From Asterochloris sp. CNOR1 (taxonomy: Eukaryota; Chlorophyta; Trebouxiophyceae; Trebouxiales; Trebouxiaceae), in contig OZ017761.1 of NCBI GenBank assembly GCA_963969365.1, forward strand, positions 434,001-498,000: a stretch of DNA of 64,000 bases, read 5' to 3'. Below, piece after piece: positions 1 to 51,200 of the stretch (positions are counted from its first letter, which is position 1; each line of letters starts with the position of its first letter). Both the position numbers and the translations under genes were made by a program. A model generated the notes under the pieces. The model was not told where the DNA came from. It did not search any database and saw only the letters and a list, made by a program, of their open reading frames with translations.

Positions 1-3000
1 GTGTTCCAAGCACAGCTGTGCCTGCTACCTCAGCAACAGCCACAACTGCAAGCCCCGCCACCTCAGGTTTGTCTCCTTTACAGTGAACTCCATTGGCTGA
101 GAGCAGCAGCTAGTGTCTCAAGCCGTATCTGATTCATGCCAGTCAATCAAAAGCCCAGCTGCATGCCAGCTGCAGGGCCTTCAAGCACGTCTGTGCCTGC
201 TACCAAGGCACCAACCACAACTCCAAGCCCCACCACCTCAGGTTTGTCTCTCTTTCAGTAACAATATTGGCTAAGAGCGGCAGCCTACAGTCTCATACTA
301 TGTTGGTTTGCTTCAGTCTGTGAAGGTCCAGCTGCATGCCGCCTGCAGGTGCTTCAAGCACAGCTGTGCCTGCTACCACAGCAGCCCCTGCTGGGCTGTT
401 GGGCGGCTTGGGGGGTGCGTTGACCCCTGCACCAACCACAACTGCCAGCCCCACCAGCTCAGGTTTGTCTTGCACCCATCTATACATCATTGGCTCAAAG
501 CGGCAGCCATTGTCTCGCATCATATTGACTCACTTCAGTCGTCATTCTTCAGAGCCCAGCTGTGTGCCGGCTGCAGGTGTCTCAAGCACAGCTGCGCCTG
601 CTACCACAGCACCGGCCACAACTGCAAGCCCCACCGCCTCAGGTTTGTCTCCTTTACAGTGAGTTCCATTGGCTGAGAGCAGCAGCTAGTGTCTCATGCC
701 GTATCTGATTCATTCCTGTCAATTAAAGCCCAGCTGCATGCCGGCTGCAGGGCCTTCAACCACATCTGTGCCTGCTACCAAGGCACCCACCATAACTGCA
801 AGCCCCACCAGCTCAGGTTCGTCTCTGTTCCAGTGATATCATTGGCTGAGAGCGGCAGCCTACAGTCTCGTAAGATGGCAATTTGCTTCAGTCTCTGAAT
901 GTCCAGCTGCGTGCCGGCTGCAGGTGCTTCAAGCACAGCTGTGCCTGCCACCACAGCAGCCCCTGCTGGGCTATTGGGCGGCTTGGGGGGTGCGCTGACC
1001 CCTGCACCAACCACAACTGCAAGCCCTACCAGCTCAGGTGGTTTGGCTTCCATCTACATCATTCGTTAGAAGCGGCAGCCATTGTCTCATATCGCATGGA
1101 TTTGTCAAAGTCTCTGACTGTCCAGCTGCGTGCCGGCTGCAGGTGCTTTAAGCACAGCTGTGCCTGCCACCACAGCAGCCCCTGCTGGGCTATTGGGCGG
1201 CTTGGGGGGTGCGCTGACCCCTGCACCAACCACAACTGCAAGCCCTACCAGCTCAGGTGGTTTGGCTTCCATCTACATCATTCGTTAGAAGCGGCAGCCA
1301 TTGTCTCATATCGCATGGATTTGTCAAAGTCTCTGACTGTCCAGCTGCGTGCCGGCTGCAGGTGCTTCAAGCACAGCTGCGCCTGCTACCACAGCAGCCC
1401 CTGGTGGCCTGTTGGGCGGCTTGGGGGGTGCCCTGACCCCCGCACCAACCACAACTGCAAGCCTCACCAGCTCAGGTTTGCTTATGACTTATCTACATCA
1501 TTGCCTGACAGCAGCAGGCATGATCCCAATCTGCACTGATTCACTAACTTTGAAAACTTCCCAGTTGCGTGCCGGTTGCAGGTGCTTCAACCACAGCTGT
1601 GTCTGCTACCACAGCAGCCCCTGCTGGGCTGTTGGGAGGACTCACAAATGCTCTCACTCCAGCACCCACAACTACCAGCATTACTACAGGCGCCACGACA
1701 GCTGCTCCTGCCAATCTCTTGGGAGGCGTGGTGGATGCGCTGACCCCTGCACCAACCACAACTGCCAGCCCCACCAGCTCAGGTCTGGTTTCGCTTCTGT
1801 TTACATGATTGGCTGAGAGCAGCAGCCACTGTTTCACCTTTGTTGTTGTATTTCAGTCTTTAGAGCCCAGCTGCATGCTGGCTGCAGGCGCTGTGCCTGC
1901 CACTACAGCAGCCCCTGCTGGGCTGTTGGGAGGACTCACAAATGCTCTCACGCCTGCACCCACAACGACCAGCGTCACCACAGGGGCCACGACAGCTGCT
2001 CCTGCCAATCTCTTGGGAGGCGTGGTGGATGCGTTGACCCCTGCACCATCCACAACTGCCAGCCCTACCAGCTCAGGTCTGTTTGCTTCCGTTCACATGA
2101 TTGGCTGAGAGCAGCCACTGTTTCACCTTTGTTGTTGTATTTCGGTCTTCAGAGCCCAGCTGCATGCTGGCTGCAGGCGCTGTGCCTGCCACTACAGCAG
2201 CCCCTGCTGGGCTGTTGGGAGGCCTCACAAATGCTCTCACGCCAGCACCCACAACTACCAGCGTCACCACAGGGGCCACGACAGCTGCTCCTGCCAATCT
2301 CTTGGGAGGCATGGTGGATGCGCTGACCCCTGCACCAACCACAACTGCCAGCCCCACCAGCTCAGGTCTGTTTTCGTTTCCGTTTACATGATTGGCTGAG
2401 AGCAGCAGCCACTGTTTCACCTTTGTTGTTGTACTTCAGTCTTTAGAGCCCAGCTGCATGCTGGCTGCAGGCGCTGTGCCTGCCACTACAGCAGCCCCTG
2501 CTGGGCTGTTGGGAGGACTCACAAATGCTCTCACGCCAGCACCCACAACGACCAGCGTCACCACAGGGGCCACCACAGCTGCTCCTGCAAATCTCTTGGG
2601 AGGCGTGGTGGATGCGTTGACCCCTGCACCATCTACAACTGCCAGGCCTACCAGCTCAGGTCTGTTTGCTTCCGTTCACATGATTGGCTGAGAGCAGCCA
2701 CTGTTTCACCTTTGTTGTTGTATTTCGGTCTTCAGAGCCCAGCTGCATGCTGGCTGCAGGCGCTGTGCCTGCCACTACAGCAGCCCCTGCTGGGCTGTTG
2801 GGAGGACTCACAAATGCTCTCACGCCAGCACCCACAACGACCAGCGTCACCACAGGGGCCACCACAGCTGCTCCTGCAAATCTCTTGGGAGGCGTGGTGG
2901 ATGCGTTGACTCCTGCACCATCTACAACTGCCAGGCCTACCAGCTCAGGTCTGTTTGCTTCCGTTCACATGATTGGCTGAGAGCAGCCACTGTTTCACCT

Positions 3001-6000
3001 TTGTTGTTGTATTTCGGTTCTCAGAGCCCAGCTGCATGCTGGCTGCAGGCGCTGTGCCTGCCACTACAGCAGCCCCTGCTGGGCTGTTGGGTGGCCTCAC
3101 AAATGCTCTCACGCCAGCACCCACAACTACCAGCGTCACCACAGGGGCCACGACAGCTGCTCCTGCCAATCTCTTGGGAGGCGTGGTGGATGCGTTGACC
3201 CCTGCACCATCTACAACTGCCAGCCCTACCAGCTCAGGTCTGCTTGCTTCTGTTCACATGATTTGCTGAGAGCAGCAGCCACTGTTTCACCTTTGTTGTT
3301 GTATTTCGGTCTTCAGAGCCCAGCTGCATGCTGGCTGCAGGCACTGTGCCTGCCACTACAGCAGCCCCTGCTGGGCTGTTGGGAGGCCTCACAAATGCTC
3401 TCACGCCAGCACCCACAACTACCAGCGTCACCACAGGGGCCACGACAGCTGCTCCTGCCAATCTCTTGGGAGGCATGGTGGATGCGCTGACCCCTGCACC
3501 AACCACAACTGCCAGCCCCACCAGCTCAGGTCTGTTTGCTTGCGTTGACATGATTGGCTGAGAGCAGCAGCCACTGTTTCACCTTTGTTGTTGTATTTTG
3601 GTCTTGAGAGCCCAGCTGCATGCTGGCTGCAGGCGCTGTGCCTGCCACTACAGCAGCCCCTGCTGGGCTGTTGGGAGGACTCACAAATGCTCTCACGCCA
3701 GCACCCACAACTACCAGCGGCACCACAGGGGCCACGACAGCTGCTCCTGCCAATCTCTTGGGAGGCTTGGGGGGTGCATTGACCCCTGCACCTTCCACAA
3801 CTGCCAGCCCCACCAGCTCAGGTTTGTTTGCTTCTGTTTACATGATTAGCTGAGAGCAGCAGCCACTGTTTCACCTTTGTTGTTGTATTTTGGTCTTCAG
3901 AGCCCAGCTGCATGCTGGCTGCAGGCGCTGTGCCTGCCAGCACAGCAGCCCCTGCTGGGCTGTTGGGAGGACTCACAAATGCTCTCACGCTAGTACCCAC
4001 AACTACCAGTGTCACCACAGGGGCCACGACAGCTGCTCCTGCCAATCTCTTGGGAGGCGTGGTGGATGCGTTGACCCCTGCACCAACCACAACTGCCAGC
4101 CCCACCAGCTCAGGTTTGGGTTTCTCCACTTGCATGGCTGAGAGCAGCAGCCACTGTCTTGTGTCATGTGTGTTCAATTCAGTTGCAGCTGCATGCCACT
4201 TGTCAAGTGCTTCCAAGCACAGATGTGTTTGTCACAGCACCTATCCTGGTGCTCTCGTGCCAGCATCCACAAGTACCAGCGTTACTGCTGGAGCCACGAC
4301 AGCTGCTCCTGCCTTTCTTTTCTGGGAGGCCTGCTTGGAGCTGTGAGCCCTGCACCGACTGCAGAAGGGGCCACACCAGCGCCAGGGCTGTTCGGGGGCC
4401 TGGTGGGTGCGCTGACCCCCGTGCCAACCGCAGAGGGGGCCACACCAGCCCCTGGACTCCTGGGAGGCCTGGCGGGTGCTCTCACCCCAGCACCAACCAC
4501 AGAAGGGGCCACACCAACTCCACAGCTGGCGGGGACTCTCACACCAGAGCCCACAACATCGGCGGCCACACTAGTGCCGGCGTCGTCATTGGGCCTGCTC
4601 GGGACTCTCATACCAGAGCCCACAGCAGCGGCGACCACAGCAGCCCCTGAACTCTTGAGCGGCCTGGTGGGTGCTCTGACCCCAGAGCCCACAGCAGAGG
4701 GGGCCACACCAGCCCCTGGACTCTTGGGCGGCCTGGTGGTTGCCCTGACCCCAGCACCAACTGTAGAAGGGCCCACACCAGCGCCAGGGCTGCCCGTAGC
4801 GTTCCCGCTGGCTGAGAGTGCCACGACAGCCCCACCTGGTGGACTGCTTGGTGAGGAGACTGCCTTCAGCTCAGACTTCATGTTGCTCTGTGCCGTCAGG
4901 CTGTGTTGCCAATCAGGTGTCAACAACAGAGGCTCAAGACTTTGCTACAGGTGCTCTGATCCCTGCCCTGACACCAGTACCACCAGCCTCAGTGGCCGCC
5001 ACACCAGCACCGGAAGCCACCACAGCCTTGGACATTTTAGGTGAGCATAGCCTACCTTTTAGGCCGCCCGTCTGTTGTGTCTCATCAAGAGGACGCATAG
5101 GCCTGCACTGCTCTCGTCTCGGTGGCTGCCCAGGGCTCTGCATTCAACAGGGGTGTCAAATGCAGGCGGCTTGGTCCCAGCTCTGACGCCAGTGGCCCCA
5201 TCATCTGAAGGTGCTGTGCCTCCGCCTGGCACAGCTGAGCCACCACCAGCCACCCCAGCAGCGCCTGAGGGGCCTCCTGGTAGGCACAGGCAGCTCTCAA
5301 GCACTGTTGACAAGGTGCTGCTGAGCTGTCATCTGCACTCACTCTCAACTGTCTCATGTAGGCTTAACATTGCCACCTGTAAGCCTTGTGGGTGAGTGGC
5401 AATGTACCCTTTGTATGCATGCACGCCTCTCTGTGGAGCAGCTGCTGCCCGGGCGGAGTGTGCTGGCTGGCACCTCAGCTTCCTGCAGCTGGGATGTCTG
5501 CCATTCCACAGCTGCTCCTCCTTGCGGCTGTAGGCGGCGTCATTCCAGTCTTTGTGCCTCCAGCCACACCTCCATCAACCCTGCCTAGCACCAATCTGCC
5601 AGAGACAACGTTGCCTCCTGCAACCTTGCCGGAGGCGGCAACCCCAATTGCCAACGCAATCCCTCCTGTGCTGTCGCTGTTGAACATCACAGCACCCACC
5701 ACAGCCTCCCCCACCCTGGAGCCAGCTGTCACGCCGCCCATCAGCCTGGCAGAGACAACAGGCCCCCCATCAACATCGCCTGGCCCCACCACAATCTTCG
5801 ACAGCATTGGGCTCATCACCTCGATGGCGCCGTCTCCCCCTCCGCAGACACAGGCAAGTGTGCAGATTTGCGCTCGATAGCGCAGCTTCGTTTGGCAGGC
5901 CTGGCTGACAGCATCCATGCACCAGACCTGTCACCGGGCGCTCTGTGCTGTGTGGTGCAGGCAGCCGTGCCTGGCACAACTGCCCCACAGCTGCCGCCCA

Positions 6001-32600: not shown

Positions 32601-35600
32601 GCCCCCTGAGGCTCCTGCCTGCAGAGCACAGTGGCATCTTGGCACATTGGATTGGCAGAAGCACTCATGCGGCAGCGCAGCTTGTACCATGAAAAGGGCA
32701 TATTGGCGCCATTCCAGGTTGCCAACGGTTTGGTCGTGCTTCTTAGATGCCGAGCTGCCCCTGTGGCGTCACTTCCATGCAGCACTGGCACCATTTGAAA
32801 AATATCTGTGGCAATCATCTAATCTGCAGGTTGTCTCTTTGCTTGCTGCAAGTGCTGCAGAGCTGTCTCTGCATCAGCGCTTATCCTGGCCTGCAGCGCC
32901 ATGCTTGCCTGTGTGACTGCAGCCAACAGGGCTCTGTATTGTGTAGAACAACAACCTCACAGCCTGCTGCGACTGAGGTCCCCTACCACTCAAGTTCTAT
33001 GTTGCAGGCTCCCATTGTAGAGTGCAGTAGCAAAGGCAAGAGAGGCGTTTGTGGGAGGCTGCACAGCTTTGCATTGCCATTGCCCTTGACCGCAAACTGG
33101 CTGGCCCATAGATAGGCAAGGCCAATCCCACCTGCCATGGGCGATGTTGCACCCCCAAGCTGCATAAAGCATGACAAAGGACATGCAGGCCCTAAGAACC
33201 CACCTGAGGTCTGCTGCCCCATGTGCGTCCTCGCACCTGGCCCCCTTGGTGCACCGGTGCTTGAATGTGAAGCCCGTGCAGAGTCGGGTCTTGTACTTGT
33301 CATTGTGCTTGCCGGTCATGACGGCTGCCTCGCGCCGGAGCTCCTCAGTACCTTGTGCCATGTGGCACTCCAGGGCTGCAGGGCAAGGTGGCAGTGCACA
33401 TGAGGTCCCCCACCCTCGCAACTTAGGGACAAAAAGGTCGGAGACAGCAGTACAGGCCTGCAAATTGGGGGGGTGTGGGGAGAAGGGGAAAGGTGCAGAT
33501 TTAGGGGTGACACTGGCAGTCCACCCCTGCATAGGGGTTAGCAACCAGGAACAAGGGCAATCTTCGCTGCCTAGTCTGCCAGGCCGGTGCAGCCGCTGCC
33601 ACCCAGTCTCTGAGGCAGCTCAATAAAATTTATAATAATTATATGCAGATTCAAGCTGCGACACTGCCCTTATCCCATGACTTCTAGCCCAGCACAGACA
33701 TAAACCAGACTGAGGTGCTCAGGCATTGCTGGCGTCCTCAGGGGCACGCAACAGTTTCTCTCCAGGTCAAGCCTGTATGGCCACCTCCATCAACAGGTCT
33801 GGGGCTTTCAACCCAGGAACAGACCAGCTCGGCAGCGCAGATCAGGACGACAAATTGCAGACAAGAATCCATGCACAACCCTTGCTTAAAACCCTGACCA
33901 GCCCACGCCGTTCAACATGTGAGAGGGCATCCCTAGTCTGGTGTGCATGCCCCGCACCCACCTGCATGGCACTCTGGCCAGTCAGGGCACAGCTCCGTCT
34001 TGTACTCCTGCGCCAGCTTGCCCTGCTCGATGGCAGCCACCACCCGCAACTCTCTGACGGTGTGTGCCCCGTGGCAAAGCAGACCCTTGGCACAGCTCCC
34101 TGCGGCACAAGCACTCCTTTGAACTTTTCCAATGGAGTGTTCTGTGGCCTGAGAAGAGATCACTGCATCAGGAACAAGGCTCTGTGCCAGTCAACAACAG
34201 CGGCGGGTAACGGCATGGCAGCAGGCCCTGAGCACAGCTCCCCAGAGCAGGTACCAGCGCTCATGAGGCTCTCTACATCAGCCATGTCAGCATGTGTCCC
34301 AGGGCAAACCAGGCCCTGTGCGCATTGTTTATTCTAAGGCTGTGCTCTGGGCGGCCCACAACAGCGTCATAGGCTCCATGACACAGTGGCCTGCAATTTG
34401 AATGATTGACAATTATGTGGGAACCTTCTGCAGAGCCTTGAGCAGACTCTGGACATGTGTATGCTTTGCTGCAGGGCTCCTGCCAGTCCAGCACGAGCAA
34501 GCCTGGCGTCACACATGCTCTTCTACCAGCCTATGCCTTCTGGTAGCTGCAGCGCATTGGTACCTCACCTCCAGCCACTGCCTCCTCACAGAAGGAAGTC
34601 CTGAAGTCCTTGGGCAGCTTCCCAGCCTGTACAGCTGCCTCGGTCCGCAGCTCCTCCAGGCTGTGCGCATGCACACAGCTGCTGCGGGCTGAGCATGCAC
34701 CTGCCTCGATCAGGGCCCGGCAAATTTGTGTCCTGTAATCCTCAGGCAGCCAGCCCTGCCGGCAGGGCAAGGGCAGCTCAGTAGAATCGCACCCATCTGG
34801 TTTGAGACACATTTTTGAGCAAGGCCAAGACCCTGTGTGCTGAGCAGCGTGGTGGGCAAGCACACCCTGAACCTGCGCAGCCAGTCCGGCCCAGTGGGTC
34901 AGAACACAGCAGATTATGCCGACATTGACAGACTATGCACCAGGCCCATTACATCGTGCACAGAACTAGAGGCACTTGAATGCGTGCTGCTGCAGATCAC
35001 CTGCCTGCCATACTTTCAACCACCCAGCATACTCTCAAGCAGTGAGCCTATGGTGGTCTCAGGTGAGTCTCAGACCTACTTGTTTTACGGCTGCATCCAC
35101 CTCCTCTGAGGAGCTCAGTCCAGCAACACCCCCGTCTGAGTCTGCAACCAAGGCGGAGCTGGAGGGGTCGTGGCGCTGCTCGCTATTGCTGCCCTCCTCA
35201 CATTCCTCGTCATCCCCCTCTTCCACAGCATCAAGAGCAAGGTCGCCAAATCTGCAGACGCAGAGAAGGGGCCATGGCCTGGACTTTAGTGTCAAAATGC
35301 CCGATTGGGGTTGTGTAAACAGGCAAAATTGAAATGAGGCATCCCATTGCGACTTGACTCCAGACACCCTATGGTTAATGAGACATCCCCTGCTGCCTTG
35401 AGGACCCCACAGGCACCAGAAGCCAGAAAAGGCATGCCAGGCAGACATGCAGCTGCCACAGCATGGGTGAACATCGACCATTGCACATGCTAGCCTGTTG
35501 CAGGAGCAAGCTGGTGTCCTCCAGCTGCATTCATGAGGCAAAACTCACGAGTTGAAGGATGGCCCCCTGACCCTTTGAGCAGCATTGTGAGCACCCAGGG

Positions 35601-38410: not shown

Positions 38411-38420
38411 TTACATTACA
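38411..38420 (-). terminator. Candidate poly(A) signals of the ion-channel gene
   Basis: TTACATTACA on the plus strand reads as two overlapping TGTAA motifs on the minus strand, about 100 bp after the stop at 38518. That is a typical position for a green-algal poly(A) signal. Confidence 0.5.
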
Positions 38421-38517: not shown

Positions 38518-41500
38518 CTAGTTGGTGGCAGTGATCACCAGCTTGTCATCATACTTAGCAGCATTGATGGAGAGAATCAGGATAACAGCAATGTTAAAAG
38601 CTATGAAGGTGCAGACAGCAACTACCCAGTCCACAATATTTGCTATGTAGTTTGCGTAGCTCTTGTCCCTCCGCACATACAGCAGTGCCTCCCTGAAGCC
38701 AGCAGCGGGCCTGCAGCACAGGCAGGCACGGTGTCAGCAGTGAAGCAGCATAAAATATGTCATGCTGTGCATGCAGCAGGAAAGTCATGAAGCCGCACTA
38801 CCAGGGTACATCACTTCAGCATGAGGCTTTCAGGAACCATTTGATTGGGCTCAGTACATGCTCTGCAACCAAGGATGGGCATGGCTGCGACGGGCACCAG
38901 TGTCTGCTGCCACAGCTGTGCGCATTGCCAGCGAGGCTCAGGCCGCCAAGGGGAGGGTTGTGGATGCTGTGCCTACGCCTCCCTGTGTGTTGCCCGCCAC
39001 CTGCTTTTCACTTGGCAGCCGGCGGCAGCTGTGGCTTGCAGCAGGTGCCTGCCCACCTGCACCTTTTAGGCACATGCCCCATTTGGGTCTGCTCTGAACC
39101 GCCACTGACCCCAGGTGCTGCTACACAGTGCACAAGGCAATGCCACCTGCCTGTGCATGCCTGACAGGCGCTGCTTCACAGAGCGGGACCCAGGTTGAGA
39201 CTGAGGCTTCTGCGGGGGTCCCTGCTCCAGGTCAGGGTCATCGTCGGGTCCTTGACCATCATCCGTCGAGAACACTGACTTGGGTATCTGAGCATCATCA
39301 GCATCAGACTTAGGCATCTGGGTGATGAGCCCGTCGGAAGATGTCAAAACTGGGTCCGGCGCTGTCTGCTGGGCGCAGGCCTGCACGCAGCTGGAAAGGC
39401 TCAGGGGATGGGACTACATCCTCCCTGTCGTCCTGCGCCGGTAGCCAGCAGCAAGCCGGCAGCGTGGGGCTCTTCTCGTGCTCATGCCCAACAGAGCTGT
39501 GCAGAGCTTCAGCAGGACAGCTGATGGTGCAACCAGCAGCCGCAGGCCGCTGCTTCAGCGGCACAGTGCTGGGAAGCTGCCATGCTGGGTCACACCAGGT
39601 CCACGACATGATGTGCAGACAGCATGGAACCGCACATATGCAGAAAGGCTGCATGCCTGCCGCATGGCGCTTGTGATCTGGGCAGCAGCCCCAAGCCCGA
39701 GGCACTGAAGGGGGGAGGGTTAAGAGCCAGCATGCCGCGTGGCGACAGTGGCCCAACAGAGAAGCAGGACCCCAGGCCAGGCATACATAGGAAGGGAGAA
39801 GGGCCACTGCCAGCTTGCAACATTGCGTGCAGCCCGGCAGACAGGCAGCACCGGAGCCCCTGGCATGGGGCCAGCCTGCCGCCAGCATCTGCGCAACTGC
39901 CAGATCAGACTCACATTTGACCTCTGCTTTGACAGCACCCTCTGGGTCTGCTGGTCGCTCAGGAGGCCCTTCATGGCCTTGGCCACCTCGAGGCGCGACT
40001 TGGCCTCACGCATGGCTTTTGCGCTGCGGCCCAGGAGGACAGCACGAGTCAGGATGGGGGCATTCAAGAGAGCTGCATGGCAGGCAGGCAGACTGCAGCA
40101 CAACTGGCTGCTCTCCTCAAGCTGTTTGCAGGCTCCCAGATGCAGGTTGCTGGGCTGCATGGCTGTGTGGCAGATGGTTAGACTGCAGAGTGTTTAGCCG
40201 TGCTGCTCTTGTTTGTGGCAGGCTTCAGATGCAGGCTTGGCCAGGCAGCAGCCACTGTGCCGATTGTCAGCAGCTGTGCCCCATGCGGCTGACCGTAGTC
40301 GCACCTTGTGTGGCGGTCCTGCCATCTAGCCAGGAAATAAACGAGGAGGTGTGCGAGGGAGTTCACCCCGATCACACAGTAGCAGGCCACCACCAGCTGC
40401 TGAATAGCGTTCAGCCTGGAGGCTGGGGGAAAGTTGAAGGTGAACTGGAGAGCAACCAGACTGAGGAACATGGTGACCTCAGTCGCTGCAGTCACCACAC
40501 ACTGAGAACTCAGCACGAACAGATACACCCACAGCAACGAGCTTGCAGCTTGGCAGCACAGGCCAGGCAAGGCTGGCAGGCACTGCAGTGTGCACCACGT
40601 GCAGAATGCAGCATGCCACCAGCATGGTGCGCACTCTCATGCAGTCACAAAGGTAGTCCTGCTGCCAGCACTCACTTATTCTGCCCTCAATTGCCAGCGC
40701 TTGAAAACAGAAGGGGATGAATGATATGTAGGCGATGAGCAGAAGCGGCAGCAGAGTGTTCAGAGACGATGCTGACCTGACACGGCCAACCTGCAGTGCG
40801 AGAACATGGAGTCAGAGCCTGCCTACGCTCTGACCTAGACGCTGCATGCCCACCAGGCTGCCAGGTGGGGGCAAAGGACTGAGTCACTGGTCGCCTGACT
40901 CAGCAATTGATGCGCAAAGCGCTTGCCAAGAGCTGCCAGCAGGGCAGAGCACTTGTTGGGGCCTGCACACTGTATGTCAAACAGTAAACCTGCCAGGGCC
41001 AATGCCTGCCAGGCATGCTGCCATCAGGCAGAGCGCCAAGTCAAAGACTTGGTCAAGCTGAGCACCCAGCGCACAGGAGCTGCACACCTTGATGGCAGCC
41101 GCTAGGGTGATGGGGTTCAGAAAAGCCGCTGTGGTGTTGTCCTCATACTCGCAGTGGATCTGCTCCACATCGTACGTTGTGTAGTCACCTGCAGGGCGTG
41201 ACACCTGATGGTGCTGCATCGAGCAGACACTGCAATTGCATGCTCATGGTCCTGAGAAGCCTGAGTGGGTTCAGGCGCACATGTGGCTGAGCATTGTGTG
41301 GGACGCCTCACACTCATCATGCAGGGGTGGCAAGAGGCAGGCACTGTGAAGCTTGGAGGATGGGAGCACAGGCACTCATCGATGCCTGACCATGCCTGTG
41401 CAGTGGGGGCAGGAGGCTGGAGGCTGTGCACTGTGACACGCCCCAGGCATCCCGCCTCATGCCCCTGGCATCGTCGTACCTTGTGGCACAAACAGCTGCG

Positions 41501-43790
41501 CAGTGAAGAGGCCCCTCTGCACGAGGTCGTTGCCAAACACGGCTGATGGCTCTCTGTATGGGTACGGTGAGTTCGGGTCCCCAGCCTGCCTCACGCAGTA
41601 TAAAGAGTTGAAGGAATACTGCCGGACCCATATCAGGTCCCAGCCCGGAATCATGTTGGTGCCTGCAGGCGGCAGTTTGTGGCATGACTGCGCTGGTGGT
41701 TGCTGAGACTGCCAGCGACCTCTGGCAGCCCCAGCAGCCCTTGACCGCCTCCCCTGCCTGCCAAATGAACAGCAAATAAAAGAGGCTGGAGCCCCTTCAA
41801 AGGCAAAGGCCGGCAGCACCACAGTGGGCTGTGTGTCTCACCTGCATTGTATGGCTGGTTCTTGAGGATCCGGGTCTGGCTGTAGTACTCATTTATTGGG
41901 TAGTCTGGGTCCCACTGCAGCCAGCATGAGCTGTCAGCAAGGAGGGCACACCACCAGCCGGCTGCCAGCAGGCCTCTTGCACCGCCAGAAGCTGCTAACT
42001 CCTTCTGCGGCCTGACATGCTGTACGCCCTTTGTCAAGCACAGGCGGGACAGACGCAGCCATGCCAGGGCTGCAATCCTCCTGGCTGACCATGTCGAATC
42101 CTAAACCCTGAACCCAACCCTGAGTGAGTGTCACCTGAATGCCGATGTGGCTCCCATCAGGGCTGGACCCCTCATCAAGCTCCAGTGGCAGCAGCAAGTG
42201 CTGGTGGTCAAAGGGGTAGGCGCTGCAGAGCAGTCAACAGCAGCTTCATGCTGGCAAGCGCAGGAGGTTGCACAACAGCGGCAGCACACAGCTCGAGCAT
42301 TGCAGTTTCATCTGCGGACGCCTGATGTGAGCTCAGCAGCCTCAAGGCAGCCACTCTGCGCACAGCGCCCGCCCTCCACACTGACTTGTTGGCCCGCCCC
42401 TACAAGTTGCTGAACATTGATCCTTGTTCCCCAACAGGCAGTCGCCATCACATCTGGCAGACCCAGGAGACCACACTGCCCAGAGCAACATGGGCTGCCT
42501 TAGCGCATCAGGTCCAGAGTAGTTTTACCACCCACCAAATTCAAGTAGAGCCCTGAGTTTCTGACAGGGACAAGCCCCCCCAGGGTTGAACTGGTGTACA
42601 GCAGGGGGCCGGCTCTAAACAATGTAATCACGCATGATATACTAGGGTAAGCAGGCCACAAGTTGATGTTCAGAGAGCTGCCCCAACCAGGTTAGCCTAG
42701 ACTGCCTGAGGTTCGCAGGACAGCTTCATAGCTGTTCCTAGTGCAGCCCTGCAAAACCCTTCGGCTGGTGGGGGGTGGCCCAGGGCAGTGGACGTGCAAG
42801 TCACCTGAAGTCCATGGGCGTGAAGAACGTGCCCACCAGGCGCAGCCACCTGTGCATGCTGCCACTGTCATCGACAACCACTGTCCTGGCCGGCTGAGCT
42901 TCGGTGCCCTCGTCCAGGAGGTTTGGCATGCTGAGATTGGGGATCTGCAAGGCGTACATTCATCAGCCTATGCTCAATGCTGGGAAAAGCCTTGGAATGA
43001 CACTACTCTTCATTTGTAGAGCAGCACAATGTGGTCGGGCCTGCAAAGCTCAGAGAGTCCGCAATGCATGAACTGACATCGTCCAGCAACGCACTTCCAA
43101 GTATTGGCATGGCAAACATGAAGCTGGGCTCGGCTCCAGATTGTCGCCAAGCACATCAGAGCCAAGCATGACGAGCATGCAGCGACACCTCCCCAGCCTG
43201 GGGACGCAAGTCTCAAGCAGACGGCTCACCCAGACATTGTCGCAGCAACCAAATCTGGCCAGGTTTGAGTTGTCACACCAGTTGGAGCAGTTGTCGGTGG
43301 CAGCTGTGCTGGATGTGTTGAGGCGGGCATCGGTCCATTGCAGGTCAATCCAAATAGCAGCCTGCAGTCCGCATTACACAGCTGGGCTCAGGAGGTGCTG
43401 GCCTGTGAGCAATTGGCCAGTCTGGCCTGCGGGCTGAGTGTAGTACTTGGTAAACGCCCCATGTGTCATCGTCTGCAGATTCATTGTCAGTATGTTCAGA
43501 ACCTCCGCCAGCAGCAGCAGCTACAACACAATAGCACCTGAGGCTCTCAAACAGCATCAGCCCACCTGGAACTGCATGTTCTCCTGTACAATCTGGAGCA
43601 CCCTGTCCACGTAAAGGCGCACAGTCACGGTGGTGTTGGTGCCAGTAGGGGCATTGCCAAAGCCTATCAGGGGGCTGAGATTCTGAGTGAGGCTCTGCGT
43701 GGCCTCGGTGGTGCTTCTGCTCAAGAGAAGGAGAATGCCCAGGGACAGACATGCTTTATTCTGCCAGGACGAGCCGCCCCCACGAGCCAT
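38518..43790 (-). CDS. Pentameric ligand-gated ion channel subunit (Cys-less, Pro-loop type)
   Basis: Exons with matching phases: 43790-43566, 43361-43230, 42944-42805, 42222-42135, 41914-41842, 41662-41480, 41188-41088, 40790-40676, 40485-40305, 40023-39915 and 39380-39147. A last exon starts near 38711 and ends at 38518; the junction before it is unresolved. The total is about 590 residues. Order: signal peptide (ACLSLGILLLLSRST), extracellular beta domain with VQENMQFQ, WTDARLNTSS, DNVW and FTPMDFSAYPFDHQHLLLPL (the FxPMDxxxFPFDxQ loop), TM1 (LLPLLLIAYISFIPFCFQ), TM2 (TTEVTMFLSLVALQFTF), Pro-containing TM2-3 loop, TM3 (LVVACYCVIGVNSLAHLLVY), basic and acidic cytoplasmic loop, TM4 (DWVVAVCTFIAFNIAVILIL). 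The loop Cys pair of animal receptors is missing, as in bacterial homologues. An extra Cys-rich insert (DNCSNWCDNSNLARFGCC) precedes DNVW. Ligand and ion selectivity are unknown. Confidence 0.88.
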
Positions 43791-44639
43791 TGTGGCCCTG
43801 AAGTACCTGCCGTAGGCTGCTTCTCCTGCACAACAGACCAGCCTGAGTTCCTTATGGGCTGTCCCGTCATGTGCTTACAAAAGGGGGAAGAGTGCAGAAA
43901 AGATCTTATACACAGCAGTGTTTGCCATCTTTGTAGCTGGCGCAGGCTGACAGGATCTGAGATGCACTTCAGGCTATTCAAGGCTTGATGATGCGTCCCC
44001 AAACGTGTGAAGTGCACCGAGCCCACCTGGTGTGCAGGACAAGGCCAGGTAGTAGCCGTAAGAAAAGGTATCCAAGTCTGCACACCTGAATCCGAGCTCA
44101 AGATGGCGTTGTCTTCTTATTCAATTCAACGTTAGGTCAGGCCATTAAGTAGGCTAATCAATGCCAGCTGCAACATATTGCAGTCTAACCAAAAGGGCTA
44201 TGAAACCTTGCCGCAGGATCTCCCCAACAAAACCCTATGCCAGCTGCACTTCCACGGCGAACTGCTCTTAGCTTGTTGCTTGCCTGTAACAAGTGCAGAC
44301 TCTAACCATGCCTGGAGCAGCCCATCAGCCACAGGAGTGCCCCTGCACCTTGCCTGACAAAATGGAGGCACATGAGCTGCGCCTGTCACACCAGAGCAGC
44401 TTGACCAGCAGCCCTGCGGCATGGGCGCAGGCCTGGGCTAGGTGGCTGCAGATGAGAAGGCTTCTCAGCCTATCTGTGGGTGCTCAGCAACTGATGTTGT
44501 GCATGCTCACGCTTTTTGGAGGTATCATGATGCTGCCTTCAGGGGCGAAACTGGATGTCCAGGGTCATGGTCAAGCTTGCGGCCAGATGACTGGACAACT
44601 TGTAGATGATCTTGCTCGCAATGGGCATTCATAGGTCAA
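43791..44639. other. Upstream spacer of the ion-channel gene
   Basis: About 850 bp between the channel start codon and the F-box/LRR pseudogene. The open frame at 44293-44634 (+) has no recognisable domain or splice context. I see no gene that I can support; the channel promoter should lie in its first few hundred bases. Confidence 0.4.
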
Positions 44640-45261: not shown

Positions 45262-48200
45262 CTAATGCTGCTTTGTCCAGCGCCAAGGCAGCCAAGATCC
45301 TTCCTGCATCATCTTGCGCAGGCACTCCTGCTTGTGAAACCCAGCATCCTGCTGTGCTGAGCGGCAGCGGTCAGCCATTGGCATGGCAGACATTGTGCAG
45401 GGGAAAGAGCTTGTGGAGCTGCTGCAGTGTGCCAGCGGCGTGAAGCAAAGGAGGGCAGTCCCAGACAGCTGCGAAGGTGCCACCAGGGCCACTGAGGAAG
45501 TGAGCAGGGGCGTTTTACTTCCCTTGCCCTCTGGAGGTGGTGTGGACTCTGAGCTAAAAATATATTGGCCAGAGGCAGAGTGCCAACTCAGCACTGGCCA
45601 CTGCCAGCCCCAAGCAGGACCAGGCACGCAACACGAGCTGATGTCCTGACTGCAAACAGGCAGCATGAATCTGTTTTGAGAAAGGAGTCCAGTCCTGGCG
45701 GATGCAGCAGCCAAGCAGTTCTACTGAGCTGACGTCCCAACTGCGAATGGGCAGCATGACTTTGTTCTGAGGAAGACGACCAGTCCTGGTTGATGCAGCA
45801 GCTAAGCACTACATCATGAGTCTGCAGCAGACAGCTGTGCTTGCGTCTGTGGACAAGGCAGAGCCCGGCCAGGCCCTCCGCATGAAGCAATTCATGGATA
45901 CCAGATATTGCAACGTTGAGGCTTTTGCAGAGCTTCATTGCAGCAAGCAGACCAGTAAGATGAGTAACCATCATGGCTGTATTGACAGCAAAGGAACAAC
46001 GTCGTCCTCCTACATGTGCTCACGTGGTCCTCCTGGCAGCCTGCAAGCTCCTCACCCAGCACCTGTCACATGCATGGCTCCAGCCAGACTGTTACGGGTG
46101 TGATCTCTTGTCTGGTTTCTTTCTTGAGCTTAGAAGTCTCTTGACCAGAGCACACGGGGTCCACCTGGGCAGGCGCAGCCAAGGAACAGCGTCAAAGTCA
46201 GGCATGGCAGTCTGCCAGGAAAGAAAGCGTGAGGCAGCTGTTCCCTGCCGGCATGCACCCCATCCACTTGGGCTGCCGCAAGTCATCGCCCACAAGCCAC
46301 AAGCACCATCTGCAAGTGCACAGCCTGCGCAACAAGACTGACTCACTTGGGCTGACGCCTGCTGCCCTCAGCCAGAGCAGCGGTGCTGCCTGCTGGTGCC
46401 TGAGTGTTACTAGCCTCCTCAAAGTTGCCAGCCCTGCAGCAGCAGAGAATGCCTCCGAGACTGGGCACTGCAAGCTTAGCTTCTCGTTGCAGTAGACGAT
46501 GGCAGGCAGCAGCCCACATGAGGATGTGAAGACCTCGATGCACGCAGCAGCGCACCTCCCCATGCAGATGCTTCTCATTCTGGTGGTGGCAAAAACATGG
46601 TAACAGTGGAACTGCTGGCTGGCACCACGCTCGTGGTCTGCTGTCTGTGCACGCTGCCCCAAGCAGGTGGTAAGGGACAGGCTTGCAGAGCAAGGCTGCA
46701 TCCTTGGGGCATGTCGCCCTTGCTAATCAAGACATCAGTACCTAGAAGGTGGTGCATGTGAGGCAGCGCGCTCCACCGCGGCTCCACATCTGGCTGCCTG
46801 ACTCCTGCGCAGCTTCTCTGAGCCCCTCAGCGCTCTGCAGTGCAGTGCACCAGTGCTGAGAAACTGTGCAGGTCAGTCCGGCATGCAGGCAGCATCTGGC
46901 ATCCTTCATGCCGACCCCTGCGACAGGATGGCTAGCACAGCCCATCCCCACCCGCTGGCGTGCGGGAGAGCGCAGACTTAGTCTGAGTGCACCTGCAAAT
47001 GATGGCATTGCTGCAGGCCTGCAGTAGGTTTAGTGCTCACCCAGGCTTCCCGCAGAATTGGCTGTCCCAGTCCTCCAGCAGCGCCTCCGCGTCAGACACC
47101 TCCAGTGCAAAGCGGCCGGCCTGCACCCGCTGACTGCAGACAGGCGGCAGCTCTGCTCTCAGTATGCAGCAGCAGACAACTGTGTTGCTTCAAGCTGCCG
47201 CCTGGGCTGCTGCCCTGTCTGTCACAGCCTGCCATACCGACAACATGTAGGTCACAGTAAGACACGCTCAAGCTGTGCTGTTGCATGGTGCTGAGCCCCT
47301 GCTAGTCACTGACCTGTCGAATCTGGGCTGGTAGGTGGGCGGTCCGTCCACAGGTGTGCTGCTGGTGGCCACTGCTTCAGGGTGCAGCATGGAACGGGTG
47401 AAGCCATTTTCCCTGCACAGACTGGTGGTGACAGCTGTAAGCGCTGTGTTCATGGGACACTTCTGGCCTGCACAGCCTGGTCACATGCAACCAGCATACT
47501 GTCAGCTCAGCACTCCCACACCTGAGCTGCTGAGCCCGTCAGGTCAACCAGCAGGGATGGAGACATAGCAGCAGTCCGTGACACTCTGTCTGAATTTGAT
47601 GATTGCTGGACAGCTGCTTGGTCTTCAACAGGCAGGACTTCACCTGAGGGTGTTCCATGCCAAAGGTGCCAGGACTCCCGCGCTCATGCTGGCAGTGCAC
47701 AGTGCATCTTCTGCCACTGGGCTGGGTATCCTCCTGCAACCAACTGCTGGAGCTTGGAGGTGCAGCTCAGGTGTCTGCTGGCAGACCAGCAGCAGGCAGA
47801 GCAGTCTGGCAGAGAGGTGGAGGCGCCCTTTGGTGCTCAGGCACCTGCACTACTGACAACTGTAAGCATCACATTCACCCTAGGGAACAATGCCCTGCAG
47901 CATACTACAAACAGGACGAATTCCAGCAATCCGGGGCATGGTGCTGTGTGGGCAGACAGCGGGCTGCTTCACACAGCATTGAGGAAGGGGACACGCCCAC
48001 AGCTTTCCAGCAATGGCAGCGCTATCGCATGCTGTGTGAAGTGTTCTGTGCTGCCAACTGTCTGCCGGGGCTGCTGCGGCAGCCGCAGCCCAAGCTGGAC
48101 CCTGGTCCGTGTGTACTACAGACATGTCCACCCTCTTCAGCAACCCCTGCTCACCCCTGGGCGCAAGCAGTACTTGGTCTTATCTGCACCCCGTCGCCGC

Positions 48201-51200
48201 TGTGCTGCAGCTCTGCAGCAGCTGCACTGGAGCTGTCAGCTGCCTCGGTGCTGCCAGCAGCCTTGAGCATGCTGCTCCGGCCAGCCCGCGCCACTGGCTG
48301 GGGGCTGTGCTGCTGCGCAGCTGACCCCTTGCCTGCAAGAGAGGCACCAGCCATCCCTGCTGCAGCCCCCAGGTACCCACTCGTGCCAGGGCTGCTGTTG
48401 CCGGGCGCAGGACTGCCAGGCTGCTGGGTGCTGTCTGTGGATCCATTTGCCATTGACTGTAGGCCGTCTGGAGCGCCGGGCGCCACAGCATCTGCTGAGG
48501 CACTGTTGTGGGCGCTGCCCCAGGTGCCAGAGACTGTGGCAGCGCTGGCAGCTTTGAAGGGAGTCCTGCTGCTGCTGCCTGCCACCTTACATTCTGCACA
48601 GGTGTGGCCCTGGGCAGCCGCAAATGCGCCAGAGCCTGTGGCAACGCTGGGGGCCTCAGCGACAGCTGTTGGGCCACTGTGTGACAGCTGAAGTTCTGCC
48701 AAGGCGCTGCAATAGGGGCTCTCAGAGGCGCCAGGGCCTGAGGCAGCGCTGGGAGCCTCGGTGACACTTGCAGTGGCTGTGGCCCCAGTCTCCTCAGCCG
48801 AGGGGTGGCCGCCGTTCCCCACAGCTTGGGCGCCTGCTGGAGGGTTGTCCTTGGTGTTGGCAGCAGCCTCAGCACGTGGTCGGGCTGAGACTGCTGCAGC
48901 CTCAATGTGCTCAGCCGCGGGGTGGCTGGCACCATCCACAGCCTTTGCGCCCTCGCCTGCTGACTGCCCCAGCTGAGCCTCAGCCAGGCACTGTCTGCTC
49001 GTCGTGGCTGCTGCCGTAGGTTGCCCCAGCTGCTGATGGGCCAGCCAGCAGCGAGCATGCTGCTGCGGCACCTTGGCTGCTGCTGCCTGGCGAGCATGGG
49101 CCGCCCTCTTGCGGCCGAGCGCCCCGCGCAGGTGGCGCTGCAGCACCAGGGCGGCTGCTGCCTGGCGAGCATGTGCTGCCCTCTTGCGGCCGAGCGCCCC
49201 GCGCAGGTGGCGCTGCAGCACCAGGGCGGCCACTGCCCTGCGCGCCTGCTGCTCAGCCAGCGCCTTCAGCTGCTGGCGTGCCCGCATGGCTCGGCAGGCG
49301 CGCTGGATGGCGCAGGCAGCCCACTCCCTGGCTGCTGCTGCTGCCTGGCGAGCATGTGCTGCCCTCTTGCGGCCGAGCGCCCCGCGCAGGTGGCGCTGCA
49401 GCACCAGGGCGGCTGCTGCCCTGCGCGCCTGCTGCTCAGCCAGCGCCTTCAGTTGCTGGCGTGCCCGCATGGCTCGGCAGGCGCGCTGGATGGCGCAGGC
49501 AGCCCGCTCCCTGGCTGCAGCTGCTGCCTGGCGAGCATGTGCCGCCCTCTTGCGGCCGAGCGCCCCGCGCAGGTGGCGCTGCAGCACCAGGGCGGCTGCT
49601 GCCCTGCGCGCCTGCTGCTCAGCCAGCGCCTTCAGTTGCTGGCGTGCCCGCATGGCTCGGCAGGCGCGCTGGATGGCGCAGGCAGCCCGCTCCCTGGCTG
49701 CAGCTGCTGCCTGGCGAGCATGTGCTGCCCTCTTGCGGCCGAGCGCCCCGCGCAGGTGGCGCTGCAGCACCAGGGCGGCCGCTGCCCTGCGCGCCTGCTG
49801 CTCAGCCAGCGCCTTCAGCTGCTGGCGTGCCCGCATGGCTCGGCAGGCGCGCTGGATGGCGCAGGCAGCCCGCTCCCTGGCTGCTGCTGCCTGGCGAGCA
49901 TGTGCTGCCCTCTTGCGGCCGAGCGCCCCGCGCAGGTGGCGCTGCAGCACCAGGGCGGCTACTGCCTGGCGAGCCTGCTGCTGAGCACGGAGCTGGTCTG
50001 TGTGCCTGCGTGCCTGGCGGCCCCGCCACAGGCGCTGGCCCAGCAGTGCTGCAGCGGCCCGCAGAGCATGCTCTGAACGGATTTCAGACAGAAGAGCAAT
50101 CCAACGTTGGCGCAGCTGGTGCGTGCCCATGCGTGGTGAATGACACGGGCAGCTGCTGCGTAGTGGGCCTGCCCCTCAGCAGTCGCCTGCTCTGCATGTT
50201 TGCGGACTTGCTCTTCCAGCAGGCGCTGAGCTGCCTCCTGCTGCGCCTCGGCAGCGGCAGCTGCTGCCTGCCTGGCCCGTTCCCTCTTGGCGTCCCGTTG
50301 CTGCTTGTGCTTAGCAGCCCTCCTCTGCTTGGCAGTCTGGGGGTGGGCCTCCTTGGTGCATTGGGCGGCGGCAGAGGGGGCCGCTGCGGGTGCTGCCGCA
50401 GCAGAGGCTGCAGGCTGCGCGTGCATACATGTGGCGTCCCTCTGCCTTTGGGCCTCCTCCTGCCGGGCCTTCTCGGCTGCTGCTGCCTTCTTCTGCGCAG
50501 CAGCTGCCTTGTCGGCCTGCTTCTGCTGGGCCGCCTGTTCAGCAGCAGCAGCCCGAAGCTTGCTGTCCCGCGCCGCCGCATCAGCACATTTCTGCAGCAG
50601 GTCTGCCTGCTGCTGCTGCCTGTGACTCATTTTCTTGTTGGGTGGAGCCGCCTGCTGAACAGGAGGCCCCCCAGTTGGCTTGGAGCGCGCCGGCCATTGA
50701 GCTGGGATCATGGGGGAGCCTGGGTCTTGCGTGGCCTGCAGACAACAGGGTCACAATCAGCAACCTGCGCTGTGCAGCCGCTGGGCGCCAAACCCATCAG
50801 CTCATTGACCCTGGGACAGGGCTGCTGTGGTTGAGAAGCAGGTGGCGCAAAGCAGTGCTGCCAGCAGAGGTGCCGATGGCTTGACATCGCAGATAATCGA
50901 GATGGTGACATCTGAACGCACAACGGTATGCATGCATTTGCTGAGTACCAGGCAGGTAGTGCTCACCTCTCTTGCCAGCTTGGCAGACAGTCCAGCGGAG
51001 GCGCCCTGGCTCTCCTGCCTTGATGGTGGGGCAGCGGCCGCTGCACTGGGCCTGCAGGCACATGGCACTGAGGCTGACTGCAACCCATGCCACGCTGCTG
51101 CCCAGCAAGCTCGGGCACAAGTGTGGTGGCATGCTGGAGCCTGCTGGCACCCTCTGTGGACTGCCTCTCACAGGGGGCATCGCCCAGCATGGCATGCACT

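Follow-up and report, generated by a model that had tools for sequence, protein, structure and literature searches.

The 64,000-nucleotide stretch of Asterochloris sp. CNOR1 DNA analysed here (the window; positions 434001-498000 of contig C16, in an assembly of 56,383,464 bases and 21 contigs) carries on its minus strand a gene that, as far as can be judged from sequence, is nuclear and encodes an intact pentameric ligand-gated ion channel (pLGIC) without the Cys loop. This is the family of receptor-channels working at animal synapses, represented here by one apparently intact, intron-rich gene in a photosynthetic alga. The gene was spliced by hand using consensus splice sites and homology, which gave a stop-free frame of 589 amino acids in 12 exons, reproducing exactly the limits (43790 to 38518) and the 11 introns proposed in an initial annotation of this DNA. 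M1 to M4 denote the four transmembrane helices, and primed numbers give positions along the pore-lining M2.

38518..43790, minus strand: pLGIC gene, ATG to stop, 12 exons, 589 amino acids
43566..43790, minus strand: exon 1, residues 1-75, likely signal peptide (suggested by the hydrophobic CLSLGILLLLS) and start of the extracellular domain
43230..43361, minus strand: exon 2, residues 76-119, IDLQWTDARL strand, then a segment with Cys100, Cys104, Cys114 and Cys115
42805..42944, minus strand: exon 3, residues 120-166, loop A region and start of the Pro loop, Thr161 at the first-Cys position of Cys-loop receptors
42135..42222, minus strand: exon 4, residues 166-195, YPFDHQ (Pro169, Asp171), Leu175 at the second-Cys position of Cys-loop receptors
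41842..41914, minus strand: exon 5, residues 196-220, portion of a long extracellular insertion
41480..41662, minus strand: exon 6, residues 220-281, portion of the long extracellular insertion, with GWDL (Trp227) and Cys242
41088..41188, minus strand: exon 7, residues 281-314, candidate beta9 (Tyr286), Cys293 and beta10, the strands being placed by their spacing to the pre-M1 Arg317
40676..40790, minus strand: exon 8, residues 315-353, pre-M1 Arg317, M1 with Pro329, then Glu349 (-2'), Gly350 (-1') and Arg351 (0')
40305..40485, minus strand: exon 9, residues 353-413, M2 (Glu355 at 4', Leu360 at 9'), M2-M3 Pro372/373, and M3
39915..40023, minus strand: exon 10, residues 413-449, basic M3-M4 segment
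39151..39380, minus strand: exon 11, residues 450-526, acidic M3-M4 loop, optional or uncertain, with a GC donor at its 3' side
38518..38710, minus strand: exon 12, residues 526-589, M4 and C terminus
38411..38420, minus strand: two TGTAA motifs back to back, 97 and 102 bases 3' of the stop

The start ATG is the first one downstream of an in-frame TAA at 43877. The introns are 179-582 bases long, with phases 0,0,2,0,1,1,0,1,2,0,2; all 11 acceptors end in GCAG, and the donor is GT in every intron except the last, intron 11, which is GC-AG (AG|GCAGGT). Over the whole coding sequence, G+C content is 0.55, 0.43 and 0.71 at first, second and third codon positions, and the third position is the highest in 11 of the 12 exons, the exception being exon 11 (0.68, 0.49, 0.63). 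This exon is the least certain part of the model. A GT-AG intron that starts within exon 10 and ends at exon 12 would skip it and keep the frame, which leaves the M3-M4 loop of uncertain length. The pentanucleotide TGTAA, the poly(A) signal of green algae, occurs 30 times in total on the minus strand of the window. Within intron 4, at 42100-42124, lies a plant-telomere-like stretch made of one CCCTAAA-type unit and degenerate neighbours.

It is virtually certain that this is a pLGIC gene. The spliced protein matches the ligand-binding domain of the family, PF02931, over residues 50-174 (55.2 bits against a cut-off of 26, E 8.2e-15). In a search of the PDB it retrieves 236 distinct sequences at E ≤ 10, headed by GABA-A delta (3.3e-8) and followed by ELIC chains (from 4.3e-7); among the 60 matches listed of these 236, all are named as pLGICs or their ligand-binding domain. 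Used as a separate query, residues 281-412 retrieve 44 PDB sequences at E ≤ 1, with GluCl at the top (E 9.7e-5). Since they do so unaided, the membrane half of the assignment holds without the extracellular half. The protein has the extracellular ligand-binding domain and four transmembrane helices that define the superfamily. Hydropathy peaks coincide with M1, M3 and M4 and none with M2, which was placed by alignment to GluCl.

Four results weigh, in whole or in part, against the fuller reading proposed below. The membrane domain PF02932, which the initial annotation had proposed to search together with PF02931, matches residues 326-567 with an E of 5e-4 and only 20.8 bits, under its cut-off of 28.1. 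The NCBIfam model TIGR00860 gives E 3.6e-26 and 91.9 bits over two stretches, the better being 49-179, under a cut-off of 280.2; for both models the E value speaks in favour and the score against. Residues 166-317 alone matched no pLGIC in the PDB at E ≤ 10; the seven matches obtained, at E 0.49-0.76, were to fumarate hydratase (six sequences) and to an antibody fragment (one). Finally, six-frame searches of the alga's own genome with PF02931 and PF02932 returned no match and hence no independent support. In the corresponding controls PF02931 was found in 0 of 14 genomes, and PF02932 in 1 of 14, never above its cut-off. Each exon is too short to match, and the six-frame result is therefore uninformative on copy number.

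The most conserved residues of the superfamily are listed by Jaiteh et al. 2016 (PMC4795631, Table 1). The [F/Y]PxD motif of the beta6-beta7 loop, with its invariant Pro, is present as YPFD at 168-171. The pre-M1 Arg317 is followed by the M1 Pro329 at a spacing of 12 residues, as in GLIC (192 and 204; PMC4795631). The M2-M3 loop has its Pro (Pro372/373), and M2 has Leu at 9' (Leu360). The two cysteines of Cys-loop receptors are absent, their positions being taken by Thr161 and Leu175 in the alignment to GABA-A delta. In bacterial members the cysteines are replaced by one polar and then one hydrophobic residue (PMC4795631), a pattern that Thr161 and Leu175 fit. These landmarks also bear on whether the ligand-binding and membrane halves might belong to separate transcripts, from two adjacent genes or through a mis-spliced model. 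The GC-AG intron 11 and the uncertain exon 11 could be read that way, but the halves share a single collinear frame, exons 7 and 8 meet within beta10, two residues ahead of Arg317, and the GLIC-like spacing from Arg317 to Pro329 is preserved. We regard a split of this kind as exceedingly improbable.

The extracellular domain is unusually long. From Pro169 to Arg317 there are 148 residues, compared with 72 in GLIC (120 to 192), an excess of 76 located between the YPFD loop and the pre-M1 segment. Two residues are candidates for the beta9 aromatic: MAFFT pairs GWDL (Trp227) with GWDI of GLIC, while spacing points to Tyr286, which lies 31 residues ahead of Arg317, compared with 30-32 in GLIC, GABA-A beta3 and 5HT3 (PMC4795631). 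On either assignment the excess is the same, and most of it sits in loop F or loop C. Cysteines occur at 14, 100, 104, 114, 115, 242, 293, 342, 387, 389, 451 and 559.

The second peculiarity concerns the pore. Residues M1 to M3 align to GluCl, with M2 ungapped over the exon 8/9 junction, and AIEGRITTEVT pairs without a gap with AIPARVTLGVT. This alignment fixes the numbering: Glu349 is -2', Gly350 is -1', Arg351 is 0', Glu355 is 4' and Leu360 is 9'. The initial annotation had placed Glu at 0' and drawn from it a lean towards cation selectivity. That numbering was in error, 0' being Arg351, the Glu of EVTM standing at 4' and the other Glu at -2'; the lean is retained, weakly, through the -2' Glu. 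The pre-M2 motif reads Glu-Gly-Arg, neither the GE[K/R] nor the A[R/K] of Cys-loop receptors (PMC4795631), and is of neither animal type.

Two views of selectivity have to be compared. With a ring of Glu at -2', a pore for cations is somewhat likelier than one for anions, and we lean to cations by odds of roughly two to one. GLIC, which is cation-selective, also has Glu at -2'. Against this lean, the 0' Arg and the best matches of M1-M3, GluCl and GABA-A subunits with a gap-free M1-M2 linker, suit an anion channel equally. An identical homopentameric channel selective for anions is accordingly an alternative of some substance, though a distinctly less likely one, because Glu and Gly stand where the animal anion motif has Pro (-2') and Ala (-1') and because of the precedent of GLIC. 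A more speculative idea combines both peculiarities in a green-algal subclass of pLGICs, with a sensor module of its own (the roughly 76 extra residues and extra cysteines that might form a new disulfide) and a pore, outside both animal selectivity types, in which the -2' Glu is accompanied by a possible salt bridge between Arg 0' and Glu 4'. This remains tentative and is, on balance, rather unlikely. The same peculiarities might instead be signs of decay in a non-functional relic. Yet the 12 exons are free of stops, every acceptor is GCAG, the coupling residues are intact and G+C is raised at the third codon position, all of which makes a relic very unlikely.

That the gene belongs to the alga itself is indicated by its surroundings. 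Matches to the light-harvesting domain PF00504 number 31 in the assembly; they are spread over 8 contigs, and contig C16 has 4. In a control set of 14 genomes the domain was matched in one, a cyanobacterium. Together with the intron-rich genes, these matches identify the host as a photosynthetic eukaryote. The initial annotation's view of a Cys-less pLGIC in an intron-containing nuclear gene is upheld by the splicing, the Pfam matches and the light-harvesting exons, and the introns contradict contamination. A Cys-less loop is, admittedly, what prokaryotic members have, as would be expected of a bacterial contaminant or of a gene recently acquired from bacteria. However, there are 11 introns, light-harvesting exons share the contig, and the bacterial relatives are distant. 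When 84,980 bacterial and archaeal species were scanned with a three-sequence alignment, 3 of 69 candidate stretches passed, from Dickeya, Aphanocapsa and a Thermomicrobiales bin, whose best segments are 24, 21 and 42% identical. Plasmid and phage collections yielded no relative at E ≤ 1; in viral contigs a pattern search picked out 34 stretches, of which none was a relative. A bacterial contaminant or recent arrival is thus most improbable; an old transfer from bacteria is possible. The cyanobacterial stretch (Aphanocapsa lilacina bin, L016, 2001-2438) is a distant pLGIC relative in its own right, and the Thermomicrobiales one (L017, 2001-2129) is a pLGIC-like Pro-loop segment whose identity extends over query residues 139-175.

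The gene seems to be present once. In the 56.4-Mb genome all 12 matches of the whole protein are exons of this gene, as are both matches of M1-M3 and two of the three matches of the Pro-loop region. No second pLGIC gene was found with these three queries, although a divergent, intron-split paralogue could escape them. The third Pro-loop match, on contig C2 (L018, 4506-4604), was considered as a second copy and rejected. It is an isolated stretch that resembles the sequence just ahead of the YPFD loop, with a genome-wide E of 0.78 (44% over 37 query residues). Its E of 0.001 when searched in the surrounding 10 kb (44% over 34 residues) counts against dismissal, but that search turned up no YPFD exon next to it and the expected donor is absent from the bases after the match, for which reasons we judge it to be due to chance.

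The nuclear pLGIC gene can be given a tentative mode of action. We infer the homopentameric assembly, the membrane location, the gating and the selectivity. As no second gene was found, a homopentamer is likeliest, and five identical subunits would most probably make up one channel. The ring of extracellular beta-sandwiches may sense a small chemical, and the YPFD loop and the pre-M1 Arg would transmit the resulting change to M1 and to the loop between M2 and M3. The M2 helices could then open the pore, whose closed gate would be at Leu 9', so that the cell would be depolarised or Ca2+ admitted. For this chain as a whole, a Cys-less homopentameric ligand-gated channel gated in this manner and leaning to cations in a photosynthetic alga, we would put the probability at about 0.6.

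Among 53 neighbouring open frames of at least 180 codons, 20 were compared with Pfam and 19 of these had no match above cut-off. The remaining one, a frame of 674 amino acids at 48154-50175 (minus strand), matches the IQ calmodulin-binding motif (whole-protein E 4.3e-19, no single stretch passing alone); it overlies a tandem repeat of 183 bp (4.6 copies, 97% matches). Another frame, 32993-33619 (minus strand), has a weak, below-cut-off match to a CCCH zinc finger (E 0.0015). A tandem array with a 292-bp unit occupies 1596-4157 (8.8 copies, 94% matches) and is surrounded by 174-, 219- and 69-bp arrays between 553 and 4782. Searches of the window yielded no Rfam family at gathering score and no tRNA.

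Chlorophyte pLGICs without the Cys loop have been published before. Jaiteh et al. 2016 (PMC4795631) report the family from Chlorophyta (Chlamydomonas, Chlorella) and from no multicellular plant or fungus. Their alignment includes 126 protist sequences, mostly Cys-less, with a true Cys loop in four species; the initial annotation's statement that eukaryotic examples outside animals are few is not supported by this survey. A diatom paper of 2024 (PMC11085791) describes Cys-less pLGICs across diatoms, missing in some species, and cites Jaiteh et al. for chlorophytes. The present gene is therefore a further member of a known family, a well-preserved but ordinary addition whose less usual traits appear to be the insertion and the Glu-Gly-Arg motif. 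Land plants are without the family, and the algal gene adds one member to its published distribution. According to Jaiteh et al. 2016 (PMC4795631), none of the pLGICs of unicellular organisms had a known biological role, and the titles and abstract openings listed by the searches of one open-licence library show no recording from a green-algal one. An apparently single-copy algal gene would offer a clean target, for knockout and for expression, in studying what pLGICs respond to in organisms other than animals and the evolution of the pore motif.

Among known systems, the protein is closest in kind to the Cys-less pLGICs of chlorophytes and other protists (PMC4795631), with which it shares the green-algal type of host, the lack of Cys-loop cysteines and the conserved coupling residues. 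The likeness to bacterial GLIC and ELIC claimed by the initial annotation is borne out by the missing cysteines, but the profile scores are 91.9 bits for TIGR00860 and 32.8 for LGIC_1 (NF033918; cut-off 500), each short of its cut-off. The proton-gated GLIC of Gloeobacter has PLDFRRYPFD where the algal protein has PMDFSAYPFD, and it has the same Glu at -2'. It differs in its 21% identity, in having neither the long extracellular insertion nor the long M3-M4 loop, and in M2, where His235, which has a role in proton gating, corresponds to Leu in the algal protein. ELIC (Dickeya) likewise lacks the Cys loop and matches the algal protein over residues 49-180, at 24% identity for an ELIC sequence that is one residue off the PDB chain; its Glu stands at -1', in contrast to -2' here. 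Animal GluCl, GABA-A and glycine receptors are among the PDB matches, GluCl and GABA-A being the best for M1-M3 with an M1-M2 linker free of gaps. Unlike them, the algal protein has no Cys-loop cysteines, carries Glu-Gly-Arg in place of Pro-Ala-Arg and has an M2-M3 loop two residues shorter.

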